Origin: a virus
Strand: one strand, 5' to 3'
DNA length: 20,483 nucleotides
IMG/VR virus record: IMGVR_UViG_3300023313_000032
Coordinates: 1-20,483 of that record
Both the position numbers and the translations under genes were made by a program. Numbering within the stretch: position 1 is the stretch's first letter; the number at the start of each line of letters is the position of its first letter. The notes beneath the pieces are model-generated. The model saw nothing but the letters and a program-made list of their open reading frames with translations, was not told where the DNA came from and searched no databases. Below, piece by piece: positions 6,383 through 20,483 of this stretch.

Positions 6383-7984
6383 TTATATATTAAACTTATT
6401 ATTCTTAATGCTTAATATACTTCGCTTGCCATTTTTATAAGTAATTATGTTTGCATGGCTCCAATTTGATAACCCTCGATTATATCCCATATCAAGTTTA
6501 CCCAAAACACCCGCATAATAAATACCACCTAATATTCCAATATTATGACTATGACCAAGATTCATTTTCATACCTGATTTAGCAAATCCGTTAATGCTTC
6601 CTCTTGCACCATTAGCACCCAAGTCTCCATGACTACCAAACTCGATCCCCTCTAATACAAAACTATCATCTGTTTGTAAAAACAACACATCATTAAAATC
6701 ATTGAATAGATTACAAGCGTATTCAAATACACTGAACTCTTGATTGTGCTTCATGGCTTTGTATGTGGCTAGCTGTAATTCTAAAAAGAACTCAGCGTTA
6801 ACAGGATCATATTTATAGTCTGATTCTCGTAGCCATTTTTGCAATGCTAAATCGTGATTGGACTCAACAATAACCAATTGAGAATCGTTACCTATTTTAT
6901 CCTTTATTTCTGATATAACCTTTGTTGTTAATTCAACTTCATCTTTAACAGTTTCAGTAGAATTATTAAACATTTTATAAAGAAAATACGGATCTTTAAT
7001 ATTGTGGTGATTCCTTACCATCTGATCATAAACATCATGCAAAAATACATATTTTGGTTTGAGTTTATCAATCATAGAGTTATTACTTCTCCATGATACA
7101 CTAGCAGCATTTTCATCTAGCTTAGCTGCATGAATATCACCAAAATTAATAGCTAAACAGTTATGGTTAACCTCAACTGAGTCTGGTGTATAATAAACAT
7201 CCAAATCATAAAAGCTCCCTGTATCGCTTTCAGCATTAAGTTGTCGAGCAAACCAATTACCACCTGAGTCAGTTTCAACAAGTAAAGCACCATAGATATG
7301 ATCGAATGCTGCCACTTGACCAGCTCGCTTATTGATGTAATTAGACTGAGTGCAACACCCTGTAGAATACATGTGCTTAGTATCAGTATTTTTACTGTTA
7401 GCAACAGATTCTAGTTGTATTTTCGTATGTGGAACAATCATTGAATTATGTGAAGTATAAGAAGTCATTCCCGTAAACACACGTTTAGCCGTTGGTAATA
7501 TATTCAACTCACCAGAAAATACTAAATCATCAGTAATTTGAATACTTTGATTTTGAATTTTATCTCGGATTTTAGGATCATACCATAGATCATTAGACTC
7601 TTTTGTTAAGTTCTGAAATCCTGATTTATTGTATGTAAATGTACCAACAATAATTTCAGCATTTTTAAACTTAGCGCATTGCTGTAAAGCATCCCAAAAT
7701 TTACCATGAACATGAGTATTGTTCTGTGCTGATGTAAAAATAAAACATTGTTTATCGGTTATTTCTTTAATGTTTATTCTATGTGTAAGTGGATCCTTGA
7801 TGTTACCGCTTGCTATTGGTTTTTCTTGTTGTAATTCCCAAAATTCTTTATAGCGTTCTTTATTCAAAAAGTAATTAATCGTTGACTTTGAGCAGCCGTA
7901 TTTGGCTGCTATGTTTCTTGATGAATAATTTTCTTGCTCACTTAAACGCTGAATTTCTAGTAGTTCATCATGCGTAAAAGCCAT
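6383..7984 (-). CDS. T5 A1-like protein: HTH plus calcineurin-like phosphoesterase, 533 aa
   Basis: Residues 19-41 form a helix-turn-helix (NYSSRNIAAKYGCSKSTINYF). The second half carries the metallophosphoesterase metal motifs in order: GDIH at 282-285 with D290, HD-x2-D at 316-320, NHD at 376-378, HGD at 452-454 and GHSH at 477-480. This order and length (about 550) fit protein A1 of phage T5, which is needed for host DNA breakdown, and its relatives in other phages. The assignment rests on motifs and memory of that family. A metal-dependent nuclease or nucleotide phosphatase acting on host DNA is the likely role, with the N-terminus for DNA binding. GGGGAT precedes the ATG. It is the last gene before the early promoter. 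A simple HTH regulator is an alternative label but ignores the catalytic half. Confidence 0.72.
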   Translation of the reverse strand: MAFTHDELLEIQRLSEQENYSSRNIAAKYGCSKSTINYFLNKERYKEFWELQQEKPIASGNIKDPLTHRINIKEITDKQCFIFTSAQNNTHVHGKFWDALQQCAKFKNAEIIVGTFTYNKSGFQNLTKESNDLWYDPKIRDKIQNQSIQITDDLVFSGELNILPTAKRVFTGMTSYTSHNSMIVPHTKIQLESVANSKNTDTKHMYSTGCCTQSNYINKRAGQVAAFDHIYGALLVETDSGGNWFARQLNAESDTGSFYDLDVYYTPDSVEVNHNCLAINFGDIHAAKLDENAASVSWRSNNSMIDKLKPKYVFLHDVYDQMVRNHHNIKDPYFLYKMFNNSTETVKDEVELTTKVISEIKDKIGNDSQLVIVESNHDLALQKWLRESDYKYDPVNAEFFLELQLATYKAMKHNQEFSVFEYACNLFNDFNDVLFLQTDDSFVLEGIEFGSHGDLGANGARGSINGFAKSGMKMNLGHSHNIGILGGIYYAGVLGKLDMGYNRGLSNWSHANIITYKNGKRSILSIKNNKFNI

Positions 7985-7993
7985 TTATATCCC

Positions 7994-8230
7994 CTAATGT
8001 AAACATTCTTCAACTCCTGTATAATAATCAACTAATTTATCAAGCTCTTTGGCTTTTAAGGTTAGAAAATCCATAATATCATCATCAGTAGCTTTGATAA
8101 CATAATACCTATCTGCTAGTGTCGCATAGCCATGATTTTGTAATCTTAATGTATATTCATCAATTTTTTCTACCTTATAAAGTACACCCATGTACCAAAC
8201 AACTTCACCTATTTTAAATTCTTCTTTCAC
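7994..8230 (-). CDS. Hypothetical protein, 78 aa, GTG start
   Basis: The GTG start overlaps the TGA of the ligase gene (GTGA) and has GGGGAG upstream. The first half reads as a small beta barrel (FKIGEVVWYMGVLYKVEKIDEYTLRLQ), similar in pattern to KOW- or SH3-like barrels. The second half is an acidic helix (DDDIMDFLTLKAKELDKLVDYY). It may be co-translated with the ligase. No family is recognised, and the barrel idea is only a reading of strand spacing. Confidence 0.6.
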   Translation of the reverse strand: MKEEFKIGEVVWYMGVLYKVEKIDEYTLRLQNHGYATLADRYYVIKATDDDIMDFLTLKAKELDKLVDYYTGVEECLH

Positions 8231-9570
8231 CGTAACTCCCCTATTGCTCTAGTAGATTCTTCTTGTTGTTTTAAATCTGCTAAAGTGTTGGCATAACTTT
8301 TATCAAGCCGCAATTCTATAAATCTAGGCAAGAATAAAGACTCTGTTTTATTGTTTTCTGATGTTACTCTTGCGTTGTATTCGATGGTACAAATTTTATT
8401 GATATAACTATCAGCAAATTCCTTAACATCATTACACTTAACACCACGGTCGTTATCTATTAAACCTGATCCTACATTACATTTAACTAACCCGTCCTCT
8501 GATTCTAAATTCAGACCACCAATACAATGCTCGTATTTAGATCCAGATTTTCCATAGTACCAACCAACAATTTTCATTTCGCATTCAAATGTTTCCTTGA
8601 ATTTAATTTGATCGGTTACTCGTTTTGCTTTCCAAATATTATCTTTGGATTTTAGAATAGTTCCCTCTTGTCCTTGTTTGGTCAATTCTCTGAAATGATC
8701 AGCAGCTTCATCTAAATTGTTGACTAATTTAGTGGGCGTAACCGTAATATTGCTAGGTAATGCCATAGACGAAAGTCTGTTAAATCTTTCCGCATAGCTA
8801 ACTGATTTTACCTTACCGTAGAATTCATTATCAGTTAAACAATCCCAAACAATATAACGGACTCTGCTTGCTTCATTGCTATTGATAGTATCCTTGATGC
8901 TTTTATTTAAAATACCGTTACCAATTTTACGCTCTAAAATAACATCATCAGCATCAACAACAACCAATTCACCGCATAAAATATACTGTGTTTCAGGATA
9001 AGAAAAATCCAATCCGTGATATTGTTTACCGTTTCTTGAGTGCATTGTTTTACTATTAATAATACAACAATAAGCACCATCAGATTTCAATTGAGAAATA
9101 GCAGGGAATTTTATATTTTTCTGAATTTTCTTAATATCATAAGCTGAGCATTTCATTACAGGAAATTCAGGCAAAAAATCCTTTTGCACTTTCTGAATAT
9201 TTTTAATACTCAATCCGCATCGTAAAGTTCTTGCTAATACCATATCAACCAATTCTTTATCATCGGATGATAAAAGGGCATACAACAAAGATAATTCCAA
9301 TTTATCTTTACCGTTAGCAGATCCTTTAGTATTAAATTCATTCAGCAACTCATAAATTTCAGTCCTATCAATTCTAGATGAATCGAATAAAGAACTTTCT
9401 GTTGGTATGATTTCTTGAATATGAAAACTAAGCATTGGATCTAAAACAAGTTCAGCAAAACTTAAAAATTCTAAGAATTCTTTGTTTGATGTTTTAAGTT
9501 TCTTCAAATAATCAATTTTTGTATTACCTGATAATTCTTTAATGTTATTTATATGATTTAAAATAGACAT
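8227..9570 (-). CDS. ATP-dependent DNA ligase, T4 gp30-like
   Basis: Seals nicks in duplex DNA using ATP, joining Okazaki fragments and recombination intermediates. The adenylated lysine is K162 in the motif KSDG (162-165). RNGKQYHGLDF follows at 179-189, then the CGELVV motif (E201), VWDC, EGTILKSKDNIWKAK and KFKETFECEMKIVGW, the usual order of nucleotidyltransferase and OB domains. The stretch before the lysine (KNIKFPAISQ) and the NNLDEA segment are close to T4 gp30. At 447 residues it is slightly shorter than T4 ligase (487). AAGGAAT precedes the ATG. A partial promoter and a strong hairpin lie upstream, so its expression may be separately controlled. Confidence 0.95.
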   Translation of the reverse strand: MSILNHINNIKELSGNTKIDYLKKLKTSNKEFLEFLSFAELVLDPMLSFHIQEIIPTESSLFDSSRIDRTEIYELLNEFNTKGSANGKDKLELSLLYALLSSDDKELVDMVLARTLRCGLSIKNIQKVQKDFLPEFPVMKCSAYDIKKIQKNIKFPAISQLKSDGAYCCIINSKTMHSRNGKQYHGLDFSYPETQYILCGELVVVDADDVILERKIGNGILNKSIKDTINSNEASRVRYIVWDCLTDNEFYGKVKSVSYAERFNRLSSMALPSNITVTPTKLVNNLDEAADHFRELTKQGQEGTILKSKDNIWKAKRVTDQIKFKETFECEMKIVGWYYGKSGSKYEHCIGGLNLESEDGLVKCNVGSGLIDNDRGVKCNDVKEFADSYINKICTIEYNARVTSENNKTESLFLPRFIELRLDKSYANTLADLKQQEESTRAIGELR

Positions 9571-9901: not shown

Positions 9902-10732
9902 TTAGCCTACACTTAGTTCAGCTTTAATTTTACCAGCACAGTTATAATTATTTAAAACAAAATCATTAGCTGTAAGTTTAAGTAATTCATCGAGTGTAGA
10001 AAACTCGGGCATTACTAATTCAGGCAAATCTAGTGTTTTGTTTTTCATTTGCTGATCAACAGCATCTAAATGATTACAGTAAATATGAGTATCACCTAAT
10101 GTACCAATAACCGTTCCAGCTTTATATCCTGTCAATTGGCATAACACTTTTAATATAAAGGCATAAGATGCTAAATTATAAGGCAATCCCAAAAAGCAAT
10201 CTACGCTACGCTGTACCCATTTCAAATCCATATAACCATCAGAAATATATACTTGAAACATCACATGGCATGGCATCAAAGCTGCTGTTCTATATTCTTG
10301 AACAACAGGATTCCACGCATTAACAATATGGTATCTTGAATTTGGATCAGCTTTAATACCTTTGATTAAGTTATCTATTTGATCAATGCCTTGCTTGTTG
10401 TAATTACGCCATTGCTCGCCATATAATGATCCTAATTCTTTATTACCTTTACCAGCATAGCGTTCTGCATCATCAGTCCAAATAGTCCAAGCATCACCTG
10501 TTAAATTTGAATACTTTCTCAGGGTATCCAAATCCGTTTTGCCTGATAAAAACCACAACGCTTCACCAATGATGTTTCTGATGTTCATTCGTTTAGTGGT
10601 TAGTAAAGGAAATCCCTCGTCCATGTGATGTTCAATTATCATATCGAAAACAGATAATACTTTACCTGTTCTTGTCTCGCGCTCTTTGCCGTATTCAAAA
10701 ACATCATTAATTAACTCTAGATAATCTCGCAT
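9902..10732 (-). CDS. thyA: Thymidylate synthase
   Basis: Methylates dUMP to dTMP with methylene-tetrahydrofolate. The catalytic cysteine is C155 in ALMPCHVMFQVY. R21, R133, QRS (R175), N186 in LPYNLASYA, and H216/Y218 in DTHIY are all present. N186 (not Asp) marks a dUMP enzyme, unlike the related dCMP hydroxymethylases. The usual SRR phosphate-binding pair reads SRY here (Y134), a mild deviation. At 276 residues it is of normal length and has no visible intron, unlike T4 td. GGAG precedes the ATG, and the stop of the gene before overlaps by one base. It secures thymidine for replication together with its neighbours. Confidence 0.96.
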   Translation of the reverse strand: MRDYLELINDVFEYGKERETRTGKVLSVFDMIIEHHMDEGFPLLTTKRMNIRNIIGEALWFLSGKTDLDTLRKYSNLTGDAWTIWTDDAERYAGKGNKELGSLYGEQWRNYNKQGIDQIDNLIKGIKADPNSRYHIVNAWNPVVQEYRTAALMPCHVMFQVYISDGYMDLKWVQRSVDCFLGLPYNLASYAFILKVLCQLTGYKAGTVIGTLGDTHIYCNHLDAVDQQMKNKTLDLPELVMPEFSTLDELLKLTANDFVLNNYNCAGKIKAELSVG

Positions 10733-10887
10733 TATTTTCTCCGTTTAGTTTTAAGTTTGTTTTTGTGCTTTGATGAAAAATTTCTTGTTTGTTTAAAAAT
10801 TGTATTGCTATAACCAACATATCCATCGAATTTCGAAGTTGCTTGGTAAACAAATAATAAAAATAGTATTGTTGTTATTTTATTCAT
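10732..10887 (-). CDS. Tiny exported or membrane-anchored basic peptide, 51 aa
   Basis: The ATG at 10887 has AAGGAAT and overlaps the stop of the DexA-like gene. The product has a hydrophobic N-terminal helix (residues about 5-15, ITTILFLLFVY) that could be a signal peptide or single anchor, a short polar middle with tyrosines, and a very basic end (KHKNKLKTKRRK). It is too short for a domain. A role at the membrane, binding phospholipid or DNA, would match the charge but is speculative. It lies between exonuclease and thymidylate synthase genes, with coupled starts on both sides. Confidence 0.55.
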   Translation of the reverse strand: MNKITTILFLLFVYQATSKFDGYVGYSNTIFKQTRNFSSKHKNKLKTKRRK

Positions 10888-11495
10888 TATGTTAATAAAT
10901 TCCTTGTCTGTTGCATTAGTAATAAATCCCTCGCGCAATCGTGAATGCTATCATGCTTAACAAAACCATCAATTTCAGGAAAATCATCTAAATACCCTCT
11001 GTTCTTATGGTTAGGCACTAACACTTTAGCAATAACATCTATTGCTGTTCTAACATCACGATAATTCCAAAACCTGAACGGATAGCTTGTTTTATTTGTT
11101 CGATATAAATGCTCAAGTATACCAAAATCAAAAGCATTTCCTCTTGAGTAAACATGGCTATTTGAGTTATCAGATAAATCATATCCTGAATTTTCAAGAA
11201 ATGTTATAAACTCTGAAATGAATTCTTGTATTGATAAATCACTAGGTTTTAATTTTACACAAGATTCATAAGCAACCTTATTATCTGGATTTTTCCAAAA
11301 TTCAACAGTTGATTCAGAATATGTTCTCCCTGAGTTTAATTGATCCATCCAATCCAATTTGAAAGTTTTCCCTGCTTTAATTAAATCGTTAAAATTTAAC
11401 TCTTGTGTTGGATCATAAACAATACAACTCAACGATGTAATTGCTGATGTTTCTATGGTATCTAAAGTTTCAATATCAATAATTAATTCTTTCAT
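10887..11495 (-). CDS. dexA: 3'-5' exonuclease, T4 DexA-like
   Basis: A DEDDh-type exonuclease. D7 and E9 lie in IIDIET (motif I), D123 in RGNAFDFGIL (motif II), and H185/D190 in HDSIHDCARD (motif III). The FVKHDSIHDCARDLLLM stretch is nearly identical to that of T4 DexA, as are SESTVEFWKN and RFWNYRDVRT. At 202 residues it is slightly shorter than T4 DexA (227). In T4 it removes nucleotides from 3' single-stranded ends and is non-essential, helping to recycle DNA and process ends. TAGGT precedes the ATG, which overlaps the stop of the gene before. Confidence 0.93.
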   Translation of the reverse strand: MKELIIDIETLDTIETSAITSLSCIVYDPTQELNFNDLIKAGKTFKLDWMDQLNSGRTYSESTVEFWKNPDNKVAYESCVKLKPSDLSIQEFISEFITFLENSGYDLSDNSNSHVYSRGNAFDFGILEHLYRTNKTSYPFRFWNYRDVRTAIDVIAKVLVPNHKNRGYLDDFPEIDGFVKHDSIHDCARDLLLMQQTRNLLT

Positions 11496-13493: not shown

Positions 13494-14414
13494 CTATTTA
13501 GATTGACCCATTTTTACATCAATATATGTTGGTTTTTGTCCCATTGGATAATAAATTACAGAGTTTCCATTTTTACTAGCAGCTTTAGCCATTTCCATAT
13601 CAACATTCAGTCTAATTTCTTCTAATTCCATTTTTCTATATTCTAATAGCATCGGATTTAATCCTTTAGATGTTGCTAAATTTTCTAACCTAATAGTTTC
13701 AGCTTTAGCTAATCTAACTCGCTGATCTATGGCAATAGTAATTTCTTCTTGTTCTAATTTTGCCCGTTTAGCTAATTCTTCTGATGTTTTTAACTCAACA
13801 CTCATTTCCATATCTTTAATTTCATTTGCTTTAATAATATAAGTCTTAGGATAACTAACTTTATTTATAGTTGCTGTGTATAAAATTAACGGGGTATTTT
13901 TAAATCTTTTAGTGATTATTTTTTCAATTGTATCATTAATTTTTTTTCGTTCTTTTTGAAAGGATTCTAATGTGTGTGGAGTTACAACTTCAACAAGAGT
14001 TCTTCGTACTAAATCCTCACCTAATTTTTTATATATTAAAGTTAATGGAATTTTTAATGTGTTTTCATTAACTTTAATAGGAGTGATCATAGTAAACATA
14101 CTATCAATAGTATCAACATCTGATAAATCTAGTTGTGTTTTTACTAATAATTCGATACCAAGTGTTTGATTATCTGATAATCTTACATCTAAAGTAAATG
14201 GTATAATTTCTACTGACTGATCTAACAGTATTAATTTCTTAGTATATTTAAACGCCCATCCAATATTTCTAGTTCCTGCTTGATATGTTTCTTTACTTAC
14301 ACCAGCGTTATCAACAACCTTTCCTACTGTTGATACTGGTATAGTTCTATAGTCCGTACATGCTGATGTTAATACAATAACCATCATTAATAATACAGAT
14401 TTAAATTTATTCAT
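13494..14414 (-). CDS. SPFH/Band-7-like lipoprotein, 306 aa
   Basis: The start ATG at 14414 has AAAGGAC; an earlier in-frame codon is less likely. Residues 1-19 form a signal peptide ending in LTSAC, a lipobox with C19 as the lipidated residue. The next residue is threonine, not aspartate, which favours outer-membrane sorting. Residues about 25-200 read as a Band-7/prohibitin-type domain (beta-rich, then QKERKKINDTIEKII). Residues 200-280 form a long charged helix (ELAKRAKLEQEEITIAIDQRVRLAKAE, shown here only in part as typical of the family). Such proteins build ring-like assemblies at membranes and influence proteases and lipid domains. Anchoring in the periplasm is unusual for the family. 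It overlaps a two-helix membrane protein gene by eight bases. Involvement in lysis timing or superinfection is conjecture. Confidence 0.75.
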   Translation of the reverse strand: MNKFKSVLLMMVIVLTSACTDYRTIPVSTVGKVVDNAGVSKETYQAGTRNIGWAFKYTKKLILLDQSVEIIPFTLDVRLSDNQTLGIELLVKTQLDLSDVDTIDSMFTMITPIKVNENTLKIPLTLIYKKLGEDLVRRTLVEVVTPHTLESFQKERKKINDTIEKIITKRFKNTPLILYTATINKVSYPKTYIIKANEIKDMEMSVELKTSEELAKRAKLEQEEITIAIDQRVRLAKAETIRLENLATSKGLNPMLLEYRKMELEEIRLNVDMEMAKAASKNGNSVIYYPMGQKPTYIDVKMGQSK

Positions 14415-14787
14415 TGTTTTGTCCTTTATTTTCAATTGTGTTTGCTAGTTTTTTAGATTTTAATTGCTGATATTTAAGAATATTTTCTGTTTCTTTTGTC
14501 GTTGGTATCATACTTACTGGTTTATTTTCTGATAAATATTCATCTAAATAGTTATCATTTATTAATGAATGCTGTTTACTCATTTCATTTTGCATTTTAA
14601 TTGCATCATATCGTTCAGTTAATGTATAAAACTGTGAACTTGATATGATCGCTATAACAAACATAACAGCAAAATAATGCTTCCAATGCCAAAATATAAT
14701 TTTGTATTGTTTAAGCTTATGAAATAACAAACCAAACATAGTCACAGTTATAGTAAAGTTAATAATATTCAATATTTCAAAATTCAT
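14407..14787 (-). CDS. Two-helix inner-membrane protein, 126 aa
   Basis: Hydrophobic segments at residues about 5-22 (ILNIINFTITVTMFGLLF) and 38-52 (YFAVMFVIAIISSS) are joined by a basic loop (HKLKQYKIIFWHWKH). A soluble tail of about 70 residues follows, probably on the same side as the N-terminus and thus periplasmic. AGGAG precedes the ATG. The gene overlaps the SPFH lipoprotein gene and probably forms a translated pair with it. No family is recognised. A partner or anchor for the SPFH assembly is an inference. Confidence 0.65.
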   Translation of the reverse strand: MNFEILNIINFTITVTMFGLLFHKLKQYKIIFWHWKHYFAVMFVIAIISSSQFYTLTERYDAIKMQNEMSKQHSLINDNYLDEYLSENKPVSMIPTTKETENILKYQQLKSKKLANTIENKGQNNE

Positions 14788-15032: not shown

Positions 15033-15944
15033 TTAAATTCCTGTATAGTCGATTGCATCTTGAGCAGAGTTATATAGTTTTTTATTGTCGTAATAGCTAC
15101 CATCCATTTCATCGAGCTGTTCTGCCATTTCAACAAGTTCATCAATGGATAACGGGTATTCTATTTTCTGAGCGTTGTAGCACACTTTAACCATGAATTT
15201 ATATATAGCTAAATGATGCTCACCTATTGGTGTTAACAAGTAATCATCAATCATTTGCTTATATACAAACGGACAATTTTTGGCTCTGATGTTTGTTACT
15301 GGTGGTTTTTTGTTCTTGAGATAAATTTTTCTTTTTAGCTTAGATAATTTATTACTCGCTTTATATTTTTCTTCTTCTGGTGATGATGGATATTTCTCAA
15401 TTAATTCTTTCCAATCCAGCGCTTTCCCTTTAGTTGTAACAAAAATGGAATAGTAATCCTTTCCTTTGTTATCATACATAGCAGGGATATACATCATTCT
15501 TGCTGGGTCTTTTGTTTGTTTATCAACAATACCATCAAGCCAAGCATTACATGCAAACCATACCTGTGATAAATATTCTCTTGAAGCGAACGAATCTAAT
15601 TCTATGCAAACTCTGAGTTTAATTTTATCTTTTGTACAACTAGGACTTGAGTATATTAAGGTGTTGTAATTTTGGAATTTTGATATTATTTCTGATAACT
15701 CTAATGAGCAATCATCAATATCAAGCATTACCATTTCCCAACCAATAACCTGTTTATTTCCCCTTGCTGTGTTATCAGCATAAATTCCACTAGAAATCAT
15801 TCCTTGTTGGGTGTATTCATCTTTTGATGGTTTATGCCCTTTAATGATGGATATTGACTTCATATTGGATATAAATTTATCCCAAGCTAAAGTAACAGGT
15901 GTTGCTGTCTTGGAAAAAAATGATTGGAAGTAACTAAATCGCAT
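15033..15944 (-). CDS. AEP-type primase-like protein, 303 aa
   Basis: Motifs fit the archaeo-eukaryotic primase (AEP) group seen in phage and plasmid replication proteins. MLDIDD at 73-78 would hold the metal-binding D75 and D77. YSSPSCTKDKIKLRVCIEL (98-116) matches the second motif with R111, but the usual histidine is replaced (P-S-C). DPARMMYIPA (147-156) is the typical third region. Residues 190-303 form a basic linker and a helical C-terminal part, perhaps a PriCT-like module. It would make RNA or DNA primers. T4 uses an unrelated DnaG-type primase, so finding this beside uvsY and uvsW is notable. CAGGAG precedes the ATG. With one motif altered, loss of catalysis cannot be excluded. Confidence 0.65.
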   Translation of the reverse strand: MRFSYFQSFFSKTATPVTLAWDKFISNMKSISIIKGHKPSKDEYTQQGMISSGIYADNTARGNKQVIGWEMVMLDIDDCSLELSEIISKFQNYNTLIYSSPSCTKDKIKLRVCIELDSFASREYLSQVWFACNAWLDGIVDKQTKDPARMMYIPAMYDNKGKDYYSIFVTTKGKALDWKELIEKYPSSPEEEKYKASNKLSKLKRKIYLKNKKPPVTNIRAKNCPFVYKQMIDDYLLTPIGEHHLAIYKFMVKVCYNAQKIEYPLSIDELVEMAEQLDEMDGSYYDNKKLYNSAQDAIDYTGI

Positions 15945-16041: not shown

Positions 16042-16464
16042 TTATTCGCCAGCTTCAAACATTCTAAGCTTGATAATATAATTCAAATGATTATTTCTAA
16101 ATTTTAACGTATCTAAAAACTCTTTGATTATTTCTGTTGCTGTTTCTAGTTTTGATAGCTTGTCAACTGTCTCAGAAATTTCCAAATCAGCACTCAAATA
16201 CCGCTCTAATTCTTTCGCATTTTTGATAATATAGTTAAATGGTTCTTCTTTGTATGAATTGCACTCACCTTTATAATATCTCATACGATGAACGTATAAC
16301 TGATTTAATGTTTTTGTTGCTGTTGATACGTTATATTTATATGTTTTATAAATTCGTAAATATTTAGCAATAAGTTTTGTTGTGCTTAATATTTCAGACT
16401 CTAAGTTAAGCGGATCGATTTTAGAGTCCTTTTCAATTTCATCTTCTAACTCACTAACTTTCAT
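16042..16464 (-). CDS. uvsY: UvsY-like recombination mediator
   Basis: In T4, UvsY forms a ring that loads the UvsX recombinase onto single-stranded DNA covered by gp32. Here the length (140 versus 137), the acidic N-terminus (KVSELEDEIEKDSKIDP), a central RMRYYKG, and the C-terminal ending (MRxFEAG- type, here LRMFEAGE) all match T4 UvsY. The protein is almost entirely helical. AGGAAAT precedes the ATG. It lies directly after uvsW, as these two genes are neighbours in T4, and it has its own sigma-70 promoter inside the uvsW end. A UvsX recombinase and gp32 would be expected elsewhere in this genome. Confidence 0.88.
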   Translation of the reverse strand: MKVSELEDEIEKDSKIDPLNLESEILSTTKLIAKYLRIYKTYKYNVSTATKTLNQLYVHRMRYYKGECNSYKEEPFNYIIKNAKELERYLSADLEISETVDKLSKLETATEIIKEFLDTLKFRNNHLNYIIKLRMFEAGE

Positions 16465-16485: not shown

Positions 16486-16515
16486 ATTATAATATTTTAG
16501 ACTCAGAATTGTCAA
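16486..16515 (-). promoter_or_regulatory. Perfect sigma-70 promoter for uvsY
   Basis: On the minus strand an exact TTGACA (16515-16510) is followed by an 18-base spacer and an exact TATAAT (16491-16486), lying inside the last codons of uvsW. Transcription should begin near 16479, about 15 bases before the uvsY ATG. The bases after the -10 (GTATG) resemble those at the other consensus promoter (GTTTG). Confidence 0.82.
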
Positions 16516-18052
16516 GCGTTATATTTTTAACTTCAACGTCAAACATTTGATTGTTGTAATGCTTACATCTTTCTCGACCATGCTCTAAAGTATAGTTTGT
16601 ATAAGCACCAATACTAAAATCATCAACAATATCATAAACAAATACATCATTACCAAATTTTGACTTTCTTAATATTCGACCAACAGATTGCAATACTTTA
16701 ATTTTTGATTTAGTTGGATGAACTAGAATTAAATTATGTAATCGCTTAATACTAATACCTGTAGATATACAACCCATTGATCCTACAATAATGGCATTTG
16801 TTTCTTCTTCCATTATTTTTCGTATTTCCTCGCGCTGATCTTTCTTAACGCTACCGTTATACAAATATATGCTTCTATCAGGTAATGCAGCTTTAAGCCA
16901 TTTAGTTAAATTTACACCATGTTCAATCTCATTAATCATCATAATAGTATTACCCTGCAAACTTGCTGCTAGATTCATACAGTATTTATTACGCTGTTGT
17001 GATTGGGTGATAAATGGAATTTCTTCTGCGTATTGAGCCTTTTGTCGTTTTTGCTTTCCTTGCTGATCTAACTCACCTCTTGGGGCAGATCGCAAAAACT
17101 TACACTCAGCATCAGGGTATTTTAAAACAATTACTCTAACTTTAAGATTGGCTACTTTATTTTGATCCATTAACTCTTTAGTCGTAATAACTTCTAATAC
17201 TTCGCCAAACAGTCCTGTTAGTGTCATAGAGTTAGCTTTAGCATCTTTTAATGTACCTGTTAAGCCAACTCTTGTATCGGCATAAACACACGCATTTAGA
17301 ATGCTTATGATTGATTTAGCTGCACTTAGATGAACTTCATCATTAATGATAGTTTTAAACTGTTCAAAGAATACAGGATCAGGTTTTGTTTTAGCGTTTG
17401 TTAATGATTGCCAAGTTGAAATAACAATTTGATTATTGTTATCTAATTTACCTTTCGTTATACCTGAAATATTATCATCGGTATTCCACTCTGTTGTTGA
17501 ACTGTAATCCGCAAAATCAGAAATCATTTGCTGAACTAACCCAACACTAGGAACTAGAATTAATATTTTTTGGTTGTATATCTTTTGGTACATACGAATA
17601 AGAATATAACAAATGCAGCTCTTACCTGAACTTGTAGGACTTAACAATAAGCTACGCTGATTATTCAAGGCAAATAACGCTGCATCTACTTGATAGTCGT
17701 ATGGTGTAATACTTTCACCATCAACAGTTATGTTTAGGTTATCAACAAAGTTTTGAAGTTTTTCTCTGGGTAATTTAAGTGTTTTTATTTGTGGATCAAC
17801 AAACACTTCCTTTCCCATATCATTACAAACTTTAACGACATCTTTCCATAAGCCGTATGGCATATTACCATCAACATTTAAAAGATGAATTTTACCATCC
17901 CAATGTTTAGACTTGAATGCAGGGTGAAATCTATAACCATCAGCCATAAAACTAAATTTTTCTCTGAGCAAGCATAAAAAATCAAAATCTTCTGTATCTA
18001 TATAAATGGATATGTTGTCAATTTTACGTATTATTACTGATGTGTTTATCAT
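16487..18052 (-). CDS. uvsW: UvsW-like SF2 helicase
   Basis: In T4, UvsW unwinds R-loops and branched DNA and drives the change from origin-based to recombination-based replication. The N-terminal domain carries DGYRFHPAFKSKHWDGKIHL (38-57), typical of UvsW. A YDYQ motif (118-121) is followed by Walker A SPTSSGKS (138-145), the DEVH box (238-241), LTGT (264-267), and near the end IVGSMGCISTGISIKRLHNL and QSVGRILRKS (motifs V and VI). Length 521 compares with 503 in T4. AAGGAAT precedes the ATG, which overlaps the stop of the membrane protein gene before it. Its final codons contain the uvsY promoter. Confidence 0.95.
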   Translation of the reverse strand: MINTSVIIRKIDNISIYIDTEDFDFLCLLREKFSFMADGYRFHPAFKSKHWDGKIHLLNVDGNMPYGLWKDVVKVCNDMGKEVFVDPQIKTLKLPREKLQNFVDNLNITVDGESITPYDYQVDAALFALNNQRSLLLSPTSSGKSCICYILIRMYQKIYNQKILILVPSVGLVQQMISDFADYSSTTEWNTDDNISGITKGKLDNNNQIVISTWQSLTNAKTKPDPVFFEQFKTIINDEVHLSAAKSIISILNACVYADTRVGLTGTLKDAKANSMTLTGLFGEVLEVITTKELMDQNKVANLKVRVIVLKYPDAECKFLRSAPRGELDQQGKQKRQKAQYAEEIPFITQSQQRNKYCMNLAASLQGNTIMMINEIEHGVNLTKWLKAALPDRSIYLYNGSVKKDQREEIRKIMEEETNAIIVGSMGCISTGISIKRLHNLILVHPTKSKIKVLQSVGRILRKSKFGNDVFVYDIVDDFSIGAYTNYTLEHGRERCKHYNNQMFDVEVKNITLDNSESKIL

Positions 18053-18799: not shown

Positions 18800-18990
18800 T
18801 ATTCATCTCCATAAAAATAAAACATTAACATAATAAAAAATATACCTAGTGTTATATAATCTTGATTTGTAGGCACAACCTCAATAAATAAACTCGTTAC
18901 TAAATAAGCTAATCCAAAAATGGTTACTGTTTGGAACGCATATAAAAAACTAACGAGAAATTTTTTAGCAAATATATAAAAATTAATCAT
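18799..18990 (-). CDS. Two-helix membrane protein, 63 aa
   Basis: Two long hydrophobic segments, residues about 12-37 (LVSFLYAFQTVTIFGLAYLV) and 45-60 (YITLGIFFIMLMFYFY), with a short polar turn (VPTNQDY) and an acidic end. The ATG overlaps the TGA of the clamp gene (ATGA), so it is likely made by re-initiation after the clamp. The turn should face the periplasm if the lysines near residue 10 stay inside. No family is recognised. Confidence 0.58.
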   Translation of the reverse strand: MINFYIFAKKFLVSFLYAFQTVTIFGLAYLVTSLFIEVVPTNQDYITLGIFFIMLMFYFYGDE

Positions 18991-19652
18991 CTTTCACTCG
19001 CTATATAAAAAGTTACTTTTAAATTTTCTTGTTCTTCATTTGGATCAGTTTCAAATATAACAATACCTGATTGTGTGATCCTAACTTTATAATCTGTATT
19101 AAATAGTTGTAATTTGTTTTTGCGCTCATGCTTTAAATAAACACAAAAATTATCTTTTGTTTTTCCTAAATTAACAGAAAATATTCTATTTGGTTTTGCT
19201 TTATCTAATGCCTTGATATAGCAATTTCCGTTTTCTCCGACTAATGCAATATCTTCTGTTGCATTAGCAGCACTAGCACGAATAACTTTATCTAAAGCAG
19301 ATGCAGATAAACTAAACTCATAAGCAGTTTCCAACTTTCCAAGCTTTCTATCTAAGTAACACAAATCTTCTTTATTGGAATATCGATAAGTTGATTTTGC
19401 CTCTGAGTCCGTAATGATCATCTGATCTTTATTAAAGGTTATCTCAGGCTGATCAAACAGCATTAATTGTTTCAAAAATCCTGACAAATTATGAATAGCA
19501 AATTCACTAAATTCATCTTCTACAGTAGCAACCATTAATCTATTTTTTTGTATGTTTATGCTTGATATTTCATGCCCTGATTGAACAACTAAATGCTGAT
19601 TAAACTTAGCGCATTGTTGTAATACCAATAATGTATTTTCAGATAGCTTCAT
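18987..19652 (-). CDS. Sliding clamp, T4 gp45-like
   Basis: The trimeric clamp holds the DNA polymerase on DNA and in T4 also activates late transcription. The N-terminus (MKLSENTLLVLQQCAKFNQ) and LVVQSGHEI follow the T4 gp45 pattern closely, and ALDKVIRASA begins the second domain in the same place as in gp45. Length 221 fits (228 in T4). The two half-domains are beta-rich, with acidic and lysine patches but no catalytic residues, as expected. Start ATG overlaps the stop of the membrane gene before (ATGA). The clamp loader (gp44/62) and polymerase are not in this window. Confidence 0.88.
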   Translation of the reverse strand: MKLSENTLLVLQQCAKFNQHLVVQSGHEISSINIQKNRLMVATVEDEFSEFAIHNLSGFLKQLMLFDQPEITFNKDQMIITDSEAKSTYRYSNKEDLCYLDRKLGKLETAYEFSLSASALDKVIRASAANATEDIALVGENGNCYIKALDKAKPNRIFSVNLGKTKDNFCVYLKHERKNKLQLFNTDYKVRITQSGIVIFETDPNEEQENLKVTFYIASER

Positions 19653-19842: not shown

Positions 19843-20483
19843 TTAAAATTCTCCGTATAATTCATTTAGTTTAATTGGTTTAAAGTCCGTTAAGTGCCTA
19901 GCTAATAAATAACACCTGTGTTGTTGTAGATATGTAACCATCTTCATTTCAGGGTTTAATTTATGCGCTTGCATTTTTTTGTAACAGGTTAAAATTTCTT
20001 GTTTTAATTCTTTTGGTTGGTTATGAATACCAATTAATTTCCAATTGCGTTTAAAGTTTTCAGTTAGTCCCAATTCATCAAGCTTTTCTTTGAGTTTATT
20101 TTCTGATCTAGCTTGCCATAATTCATCTTTAAATTTTTGAGTTATGTTAGGCGCTCGTTTAGCACTACCTGTTTTTTCTTTTTCCAAGTATTGAGTTTTA
20201 AAAAAATCTGAACTGCACTTAATACTTGGAATACCATCAACTTTATCCCCAGATACAATCAAATCGAATTCAAACCTGATAGGATTTTTAACACTAAACA
20301 TTTCTTTAGAGTATTGGCGATACATAAATACATTTGTTTTATTTGTTAACGCAACTAAATCTTTATCATTAGAAATAATTAATGTTTTTTCATTTGATTC
20401 TTTAGACAACACAGCAATTAAATCATCTGCCTCTGCTGTATCAACCTGAATGGTTCTATAAGGAAAAAAATCACTAATATAGA
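19843..20483 (-). CDS. rnh: 5'-3' exonuclease (RNase H, FEN family), 5' part outside window
   Basis: The frame is open to the right edge, so the N-terminus is missing; 212 C-terminal residues are visible. T4 Rnh removes RNA primers and adjacent DNA from Okazaki fragments. Visible motifs: FPYRTIQVDTAEADDLIAVL with an acidic cluster (E17, D19, D20 of the visible part), IISNDKD (36-41), and SGDKVDGIPS (77-86), the helix-hairpin-type DNA-binding turn with D79 and D82. The order and spacing match T4 Rnh. It overlaps no neighbour and ends two bases before the small membrane gene. It cooperates with ligase and clamp in lagging-strand maturation. Confidence 0.88.
   Translation of the reverse strand, partial: YISDFFPYRTIQVDTAEADDLIAVLSKESNEKTLIISNDKDLVALTNKTNVFMYRQYSKEMFSVKNPIRFEFDLIVSGDKVDGIPSIKCSSDFFKTQYLEKEKTGSAKRAPNITQKFKDELWQARSENKLKEKLDELGLTENFKRNWKLIGIHNQPKELKQEILTCYKKMQAHKLNPEMKMVTYLQQHRCYLLARHLTDFKPIKLNELYGEF

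Follow-up and report, generated by a model that had tools for sequence, protein, structure and literature searches.

The DNA analysed here, hereafter the window, is a virus record of 20,483 bases; its genes are of T4 type and are encoded on the minus strand. A minus-strand open reading frame at 15033–15944, with its ATG at 15944 and its stop codon at 15033–15035, encodes a protein of 303 amino acids. The preliminary description had noted three motifs in a fixed order in this protein and a T4-type replication setting around its gene. Both observations were borne out: MLDIDD occupies residues 73–78, YSSPSCTKDKIKLRV residues 98–112 and DPARMMYIPA residues 146–155, and the window encodes UvsW, UvsY, a gp45 clamp, RNase H, Dda, a DexA-like exonuclease, a DNA ligase and a thymidylate synthase. 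The features of the locus are listed below.

15033..15944, minus strand: AEP-type primase gene, 303 aa, stand-alone, without a helicase domain
15387..15944, minus strand: AEP catalytic domain of the AlphaFold2 model, residues 1–186; Foldseek and VIA matches to 6zp9
15711..15728, minus strand: motif I, MLDIDD, residues 73–78; D75 and D77 invariant in 152/152 distinct relatives
15609..15653, minus strand: motif II, YSSPSCTKDKIKLRV, residues 98–112; sister-family His replaced by P101 and C103, K109 and R111 kept
15480..15524, minus strand: motif III and subsequent Arg motif, DKQTKDPARMMYIPA, residues 141–155; D141, K145, D146, R149, Y152 and P154 invariant
15291..15386, minus strand: linker, residues 187–218, in part of low confidence in the AlphaFold2 model
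15036..15290, minus strand: C-terminal four-helix domain, residues 219–303, of the helix-bundle type found after other AEP domains
16042..16464, minus strand: UvsY-like recombination mediator (phrog_231, E 1.6e-29)
16487..18052, minus strand: UvsW helicase (UvsW_N, 8.9e-19; 55% to Vibrio phages)
18987..19652, minus strand: gp45-type sliding clamp (phrog_223, E 1.2e-42)
19843..20481, minus strand: T4-type RNase H, 5' part lost at the contig end
12110..13444, minus strand: Dda-like helicase (phrog_325, E 7.6e-78)
10887..11495, minus strand: DexA-like exonuclease (phrog_255, E 2e-48)
8227..9570, minus strand: ATP-dependent DNA ligase (phrog_114, E 5.1e-100)

The RNase H frame stays open at the contig end, reading EADDLIA up to the last bases. 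Further along the T4-type block, the product of 6383–7984 (minus strand) matches phrog_1745, 'DNA transfer protein' (E 1.9e-183), an unexpected annotation in such a setting, and shows weak helix-turn-helix matches at its N-terminus. An SPFH/Band_7 lipoprotein-like gene (13494–14435, minus strand; phrog_200) is overlapped by a small gene (14407–14787, minus strand) whose product resembles a membrane protein, so that the two may form a membrane pair.

Profile scans matched the 303-aa protein to PHROG 9765, 'DNA primase' (E 1.4e-54), and to the VapE-type helicase-primase family phrog_256 (E 9e-11). The PHROG 9765 match, together with 46–48% identity over the full length to Vibrio phage genes, indicates a real gene and not a chance reading frame. 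Pfam and NCBIfam scans gave no family above the cut-off; a match to P22 Abc2 (residues 82–127, E 0.003, below the Pfam cut-off) was judged to be due to chance. The gp61/DnaG-type profile phrog_47 was absent from scans of the protein, which returned AEP-type families, and a role in anti-phage defence was rejected after PADLOC gave no match.

The predicted fold is that of an archaeo-eukaryotic primase

An AlphaFold2 model of the whole protein was built from 42 window and IMG/VR sequences (mean pLDDT 82). Its top PDB match in Foldseek was the AEP domain of cyanophage S-2L PrimPol (6zp9; E 3.9e-6), the sole match below 0.001, and VIA-align gave a Z score of 10.4 over 143 residues against the same structure. 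The remaining leading structural matches of residues 1–190 were nearly all AEPs, with Z scores of 4.5–7.5 that are singly not strong; RepB', NrS-1, Prim-PolC, PriS and LigD polymerase domains were among the AEPs recovered. A library of viral models gave 76 matches at E ≤ 0.001; those with names include many primases, primase-helicases and VapE/VirE-type proteins, and the first match (308 residues) was 46% identical to the window protein. Profile-profile alignment with the histidine-bearing VapE-type AEPs gave a probability of 97.3 and an E value of 1.9e-11 over 121 columns. The structure prediction and fold search of residues 1–190, which the preliminary description had proposed as a check, therefore recovered AEPs and not the unrelated fold that it had named as the contrary outcome. 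On the evidence of the model, the window protein is a stand-alone archaeo-eukaryotic-type primase (AEP), as had been suggested from the sequence.

The C-terminal 85 residues are modelled as four helices; taken by itself, this domain found helical-bundle matches of no more than middling quality, with RepB' (Z 6.1) amid unrelated proteins. S-2L PrimPol, the best structural match, has the same layout, with an AEP domain (1–190), a linker and a helical domain (210–300) (PMC8065100), but it differs from the window protein in possessing H118 and, at its C-terminus, a VapE-like helicase domain. Moreover, S-2L PrimPol is described as the sole possible polymerase of its phage (PMC8065100), whereas the window's phage type has the gp43 polymerase. 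The predicted folds of proteins from Agrobacterium phage Atu_ph07 and cyanophage S-TIM5 (BFVD A0A2L0UZL6 and H6WG13) also match the window AEP, and further large phages may carry unnoticed AEPs.

Catalytic residues are invariant and the motif II histidine is missing

Conservation was counted over 152 distinct relatives of the T4-type group, with 38 VapE-type sequences as the sister family. At pairwise identities down to 26%, 26 residues are invariant in the 152 sequences, among them D75, D77, R111, D141, Q143, T144, K145, D146, R149, Y152 and P154; the K109 column holds Lys in 150 and Arg in 2. AEP motif I (hhhDhD/E) is thus present, with D75 and D77 in every relative, and so is motif III (hD/E), whose D141 is also kept in 38/38 sister-family sequences. 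The third stretch quoted in the preliminary description, DPARMMYIPA, exists, but the metal-binding Asp of motif III is most likely D141 (in VDKQTKDPAR), five residues earlier, because D141 aligns with the motif III Asp of S-2L PrimPol (D146...R154) and of the VapE-type primases. R149, placed by sequence alignment, follows motif III, is succeeded by Met or Leu and is invariant in the 152 sequences, which makes it a candidate for the motif IV Arg conserved in the PrimPol-PV1 supergroup. A small alignment of the S-2L family yielded nothing significant in profile-profile comparison, so the equivalence of motif II was taken from the sister family and that of motif III from a hand alignment.

The N-terminal AEP domain of the VapE/VirE-type primase-helicases (phrog_256, Staphylococcus and Streptococcus phages) aligns along its length with the window protein and shares its acidic residues, R111 and R149. 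These proteins differ from the window protein in having a fused VapE helicase and, at motif II, the loop YSTHKHT, with His at the P101 position in 38/38 and at the C103 position in 32/38. The second His of the loop is Asn in 5/38 and Tyr in 1/38; since the first is always kept, it may be the functional one in the VapE-type family. Among the 152 T4-type relatives, position 101 is Ala (144), Pro (4), Ser (3) or Gly (1) and position 103 is Ser (138), Cys (11) or Asn (3). A His is therefore found at either candidate position in 0/152, and no column of the protein holds an invariant His in these sequences. The earlier reading of P-S-C in place of the expected histidine was correct, both His of YSTHKHT being replaced (P101 and C103).

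The T4-type group accordingly lacks the motif II sxH of the classical AEP signature, whose His serves in nucleotide binding in most AEPs. The motif II His is, however, family-specific among AEPs (PMC5862659), so that the superfamily assignment stands while the classical signature does not. The PrimPol-PV1 supergroup (PolpTN2, RepB', PrimQH and PrimHYQ) likewise comprises AEPs without an obligatory His; the position is occupied by Gln, Tyr or His in PrimPol-PV1 families, and by Arg/Lys in DR0530-like proteins (PMC5862659), in contrast to Ala/Pro/Ser/Gly at one candidate site and Ser/Cys/Asn at the other in the window family. Judged by its sequence, S-2L PrimPol has H118 where the strand that follows the loop begins; in the window model this strand starts at K109, suggesting that either K109 or R111 could occupy the position of the His.

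A large family found mainly in uncultured viruses

Full-length relatives with 46–48% identity were found in the Vibrio phages V6Aob, 2.058.O, 3.058.O and henriette 12B8, and one with 25% identity in phage C48C1 (Kyanoviridae). For Staphylococcus and Streptococcus phage primase-helicases, the alignment covers the N-terminal domain, at 25%. Complete homologues have 306–329 aa. The Vibrio phages share the window's gene order uvsW-uvsY-primase-dda, with small genes in between, and the genes of henriette 12B8 (VPDG_00043), V6Aob and 2.058.O are orthologues by identity, length and gene order. Their records name the product only as 'DNA primase' or 'hypothetical protein', and the annotation is silent on both an exchange and the missing His.

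Sequence patterns derived from a single protein, either that of the window or that of V6Aob, detected no relatives in viral contigs; an alignment of five relatives did recover them. With this five-sequence alignment, relatives were found encoded in 192 IMG/VR stretches, and two further searches returned at least 600 stretches each, indicating that the AEP family is large. No relatives were found in the bacterial and archaeal genome contigs searched, so that no prophage or host source came to light. In a phage collection, 2377 records match T4 gp61 vs. 6 (from five phages) that match the C48C1 AEP. The AEP family is thus one of mostly uncultured viruses, common in environmental virus data and nearly absent from culture collections.

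AEP and gp61 exclude each other in T4-type genomes

The T4 replisome is the textbook example, and its primase gp61, a zinc ribbon and TOPRIM protein, is unrelated in fold to the window AEP, which would take the same place beside gp41 and gp43. In the T4 core genome, gp41 and gp61 are found together (Petrov et al., PMC2993671). None of gp41, gp43 and gp61 is encoded within the 20-kb window fragment, and they were therefore sought in relatives. The gp61 detector was phrog_47, which finds T4 gp61 and also gives matches in 11/14 control prokaryotes; it was used rather than PF13155 (Toprim_2) because the latter misses T4 gp61 itself.

The first 13 AEP carriers comprised three Vibrio phage genomes (henriette 12B8, V6Aob and 2.058.O), C48C1 and nine contigs of 97–160 kb. 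No gp61 was detected in any of them at E ≤ 1, nor in five further AEP contigs of 74–99 kb at E ≤ 0.01, and gp41 was present in all 13 and in 3/3 further carriers tested (16/16). Conversely, gp61 without an AEP was found in 9/9 genomes (T4, HTVC008M, Melnitz, Mosig, Cr30, S-T4, S-SKS1, SynMITS9220M01 and syn9). The resulting 18 vs. 9 table gave a Fisher p of 2e-7, a value to be read with the relatedness of the genomes in mind, as they are not independent. Among 228 IMG/VR AEP loci, most of them on incomplete metagenome contigs, gp61 was found in none. Where all four genes were present in IMG/VR loci, the order gp43-AEP-uvsX-gp41 was kept on one strand in 102/102, a fixed order that applies to the Kyanoviridae-like relatives. 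In Melnitz, a Methylophilales phage, a 108-aa frame at 10446–10772 that overlaps the start of a DnaB-like gene is annotated 'DNA primase', and the gp61 profile match lies elsewhere in the genome (26017–27054).

The mutual exclusion of AEP and gp61, with gp41 alongside the AEP, supports the earlier suggestion that the primase has been exchanged. A full gp61 homologue in the same genome, which had been named, together with an absence of nucleotide binding by the protein, as evidence to the contrary, was not found in the 20-kb fragment by which the window genome is known; because the window is such a fragment, the absence of gp61 from its phage is inferred from the 46–48% identical relatives.

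AEP carriers form two lineages

In the gp41 and UvsW trees, the AEP carriers fall into two groups, one of Vibrio phages and the window and one Kyanoviridae-like, with gp61 carriers between them. One of the two is very common among uncultured viruses. The minimum number of changes on these trees is two, and none of the bootstrap trees requires only one. A single carrier clade was rejected (p-AU 0.012 for gp41 and 0.0008 for UvsW), although T4, Cr30 and the Vibrio group have long branches, so that this result should be read with caution. With a VapE-type outgroup, the AEPs themselves group together. Given the two carrier clades, there were probably two or more events in which the primase was exchanged or passed on; combined with the single AEP group, the two clades point to an AEP of one kind that was either taken up twice or passed between T4-type lineages.

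Proposed function

We consider the gene product likely to be the replicative primase of its T4-type phage, an AEP that displaced gp61 and works beside gp41 and gp43. This reading draws on homology, the predicted fold, the acidic triad, the exclusion of gp61, the company of gp41, synteny and the missing His. In the proposed mechanism, the stand-alone AEP would couple to gp41 and prime for this DnaB-type helicase, and would hand its primers over to the family B polymerase gp43. D75, D77 and D141 would hold the catalytic metals, and the triphosphate may be neutralised by K109, R111, K145 and R149, basic residues kept in the family, instead of by the His.

Human PrimPol is an AEP that serves in a side job, and the window AEP might similarly act in lesion restart, gap filling or recombination-linked priming while host DnaG primes the lagging strand. 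Such a role would suit its nearest neighbours in the window, the recombination genes UvsW and UvsY together with Dda, but it is quite unlikely given that the AEP takes the place of gp61 in every genome tested and lies within the core block gp43-AEP-uvsX-gp41 in metagenome relatives, and that gp61 is counted with gp41 in the T4-type core genome (PMC2993671). The absence of the motif II His from all relatives could also mean that catalysis has been lost and that the protein is a dead AEP remnant that persists as a subunit for DNA binding or helicase loading, and the preliminary description had placed its activity in doubt on account of this His. That doubt is weakened, not removed. The His is missing from the whole family, yet D75, D77 and D141 are among its 26 invariant residues; an active site no longer in use would be expected to accumulate changes, and a triad kept at such low identity argues against decay. 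Other AEP families are active without the His, including PolpTN2 with Gln at this position (PMC5862659). Taken together, these features favour an enzyme that is active but has an altered nucleotide pocket, and a dead remnant appears very improbable.

Within the replicative-primase reading, the enzyme could be of the PrimPol kind, starting and extending DNA with dNTPs instead of making short RNA primers. The top fold match, S-2L, is a PrimPol, and the NrS-1 PrimPol also matches; on the other hand, the gene of the replicative polymerase gp43 adjoins the AEP in relatives, and the window encodes a T4-type RNase H, an enzyme that in T4 removes RNA primers. We regard this sub-case as possible but rather doubtful.

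Implications

No description of an exchange of gp61 for an AEP was found in the open-access literature searched, a scope that leaves most subscription journals outside. We lean, with some reserve, towards a broader picture in which the gp41-gp61 primosome was dismantled two or more times, an AEP lacking any motif II His primes for a DnaB-type helicase, and the triphosphate is held by a conserved set of Lys and Arg residues as a new pocket solution, in lineages that are abundant in the environment and nearly absent from culture. The family raises the question of how an AEP binds nucleotides without this histidine. If a T4-type fork indeed runs on an unrelated primase, the helicase-primase coupling of gp41 and gp61 can be rebuilt with another enzyme, and these phages would represent a natural experiment on what helicase-primase coupling requires.
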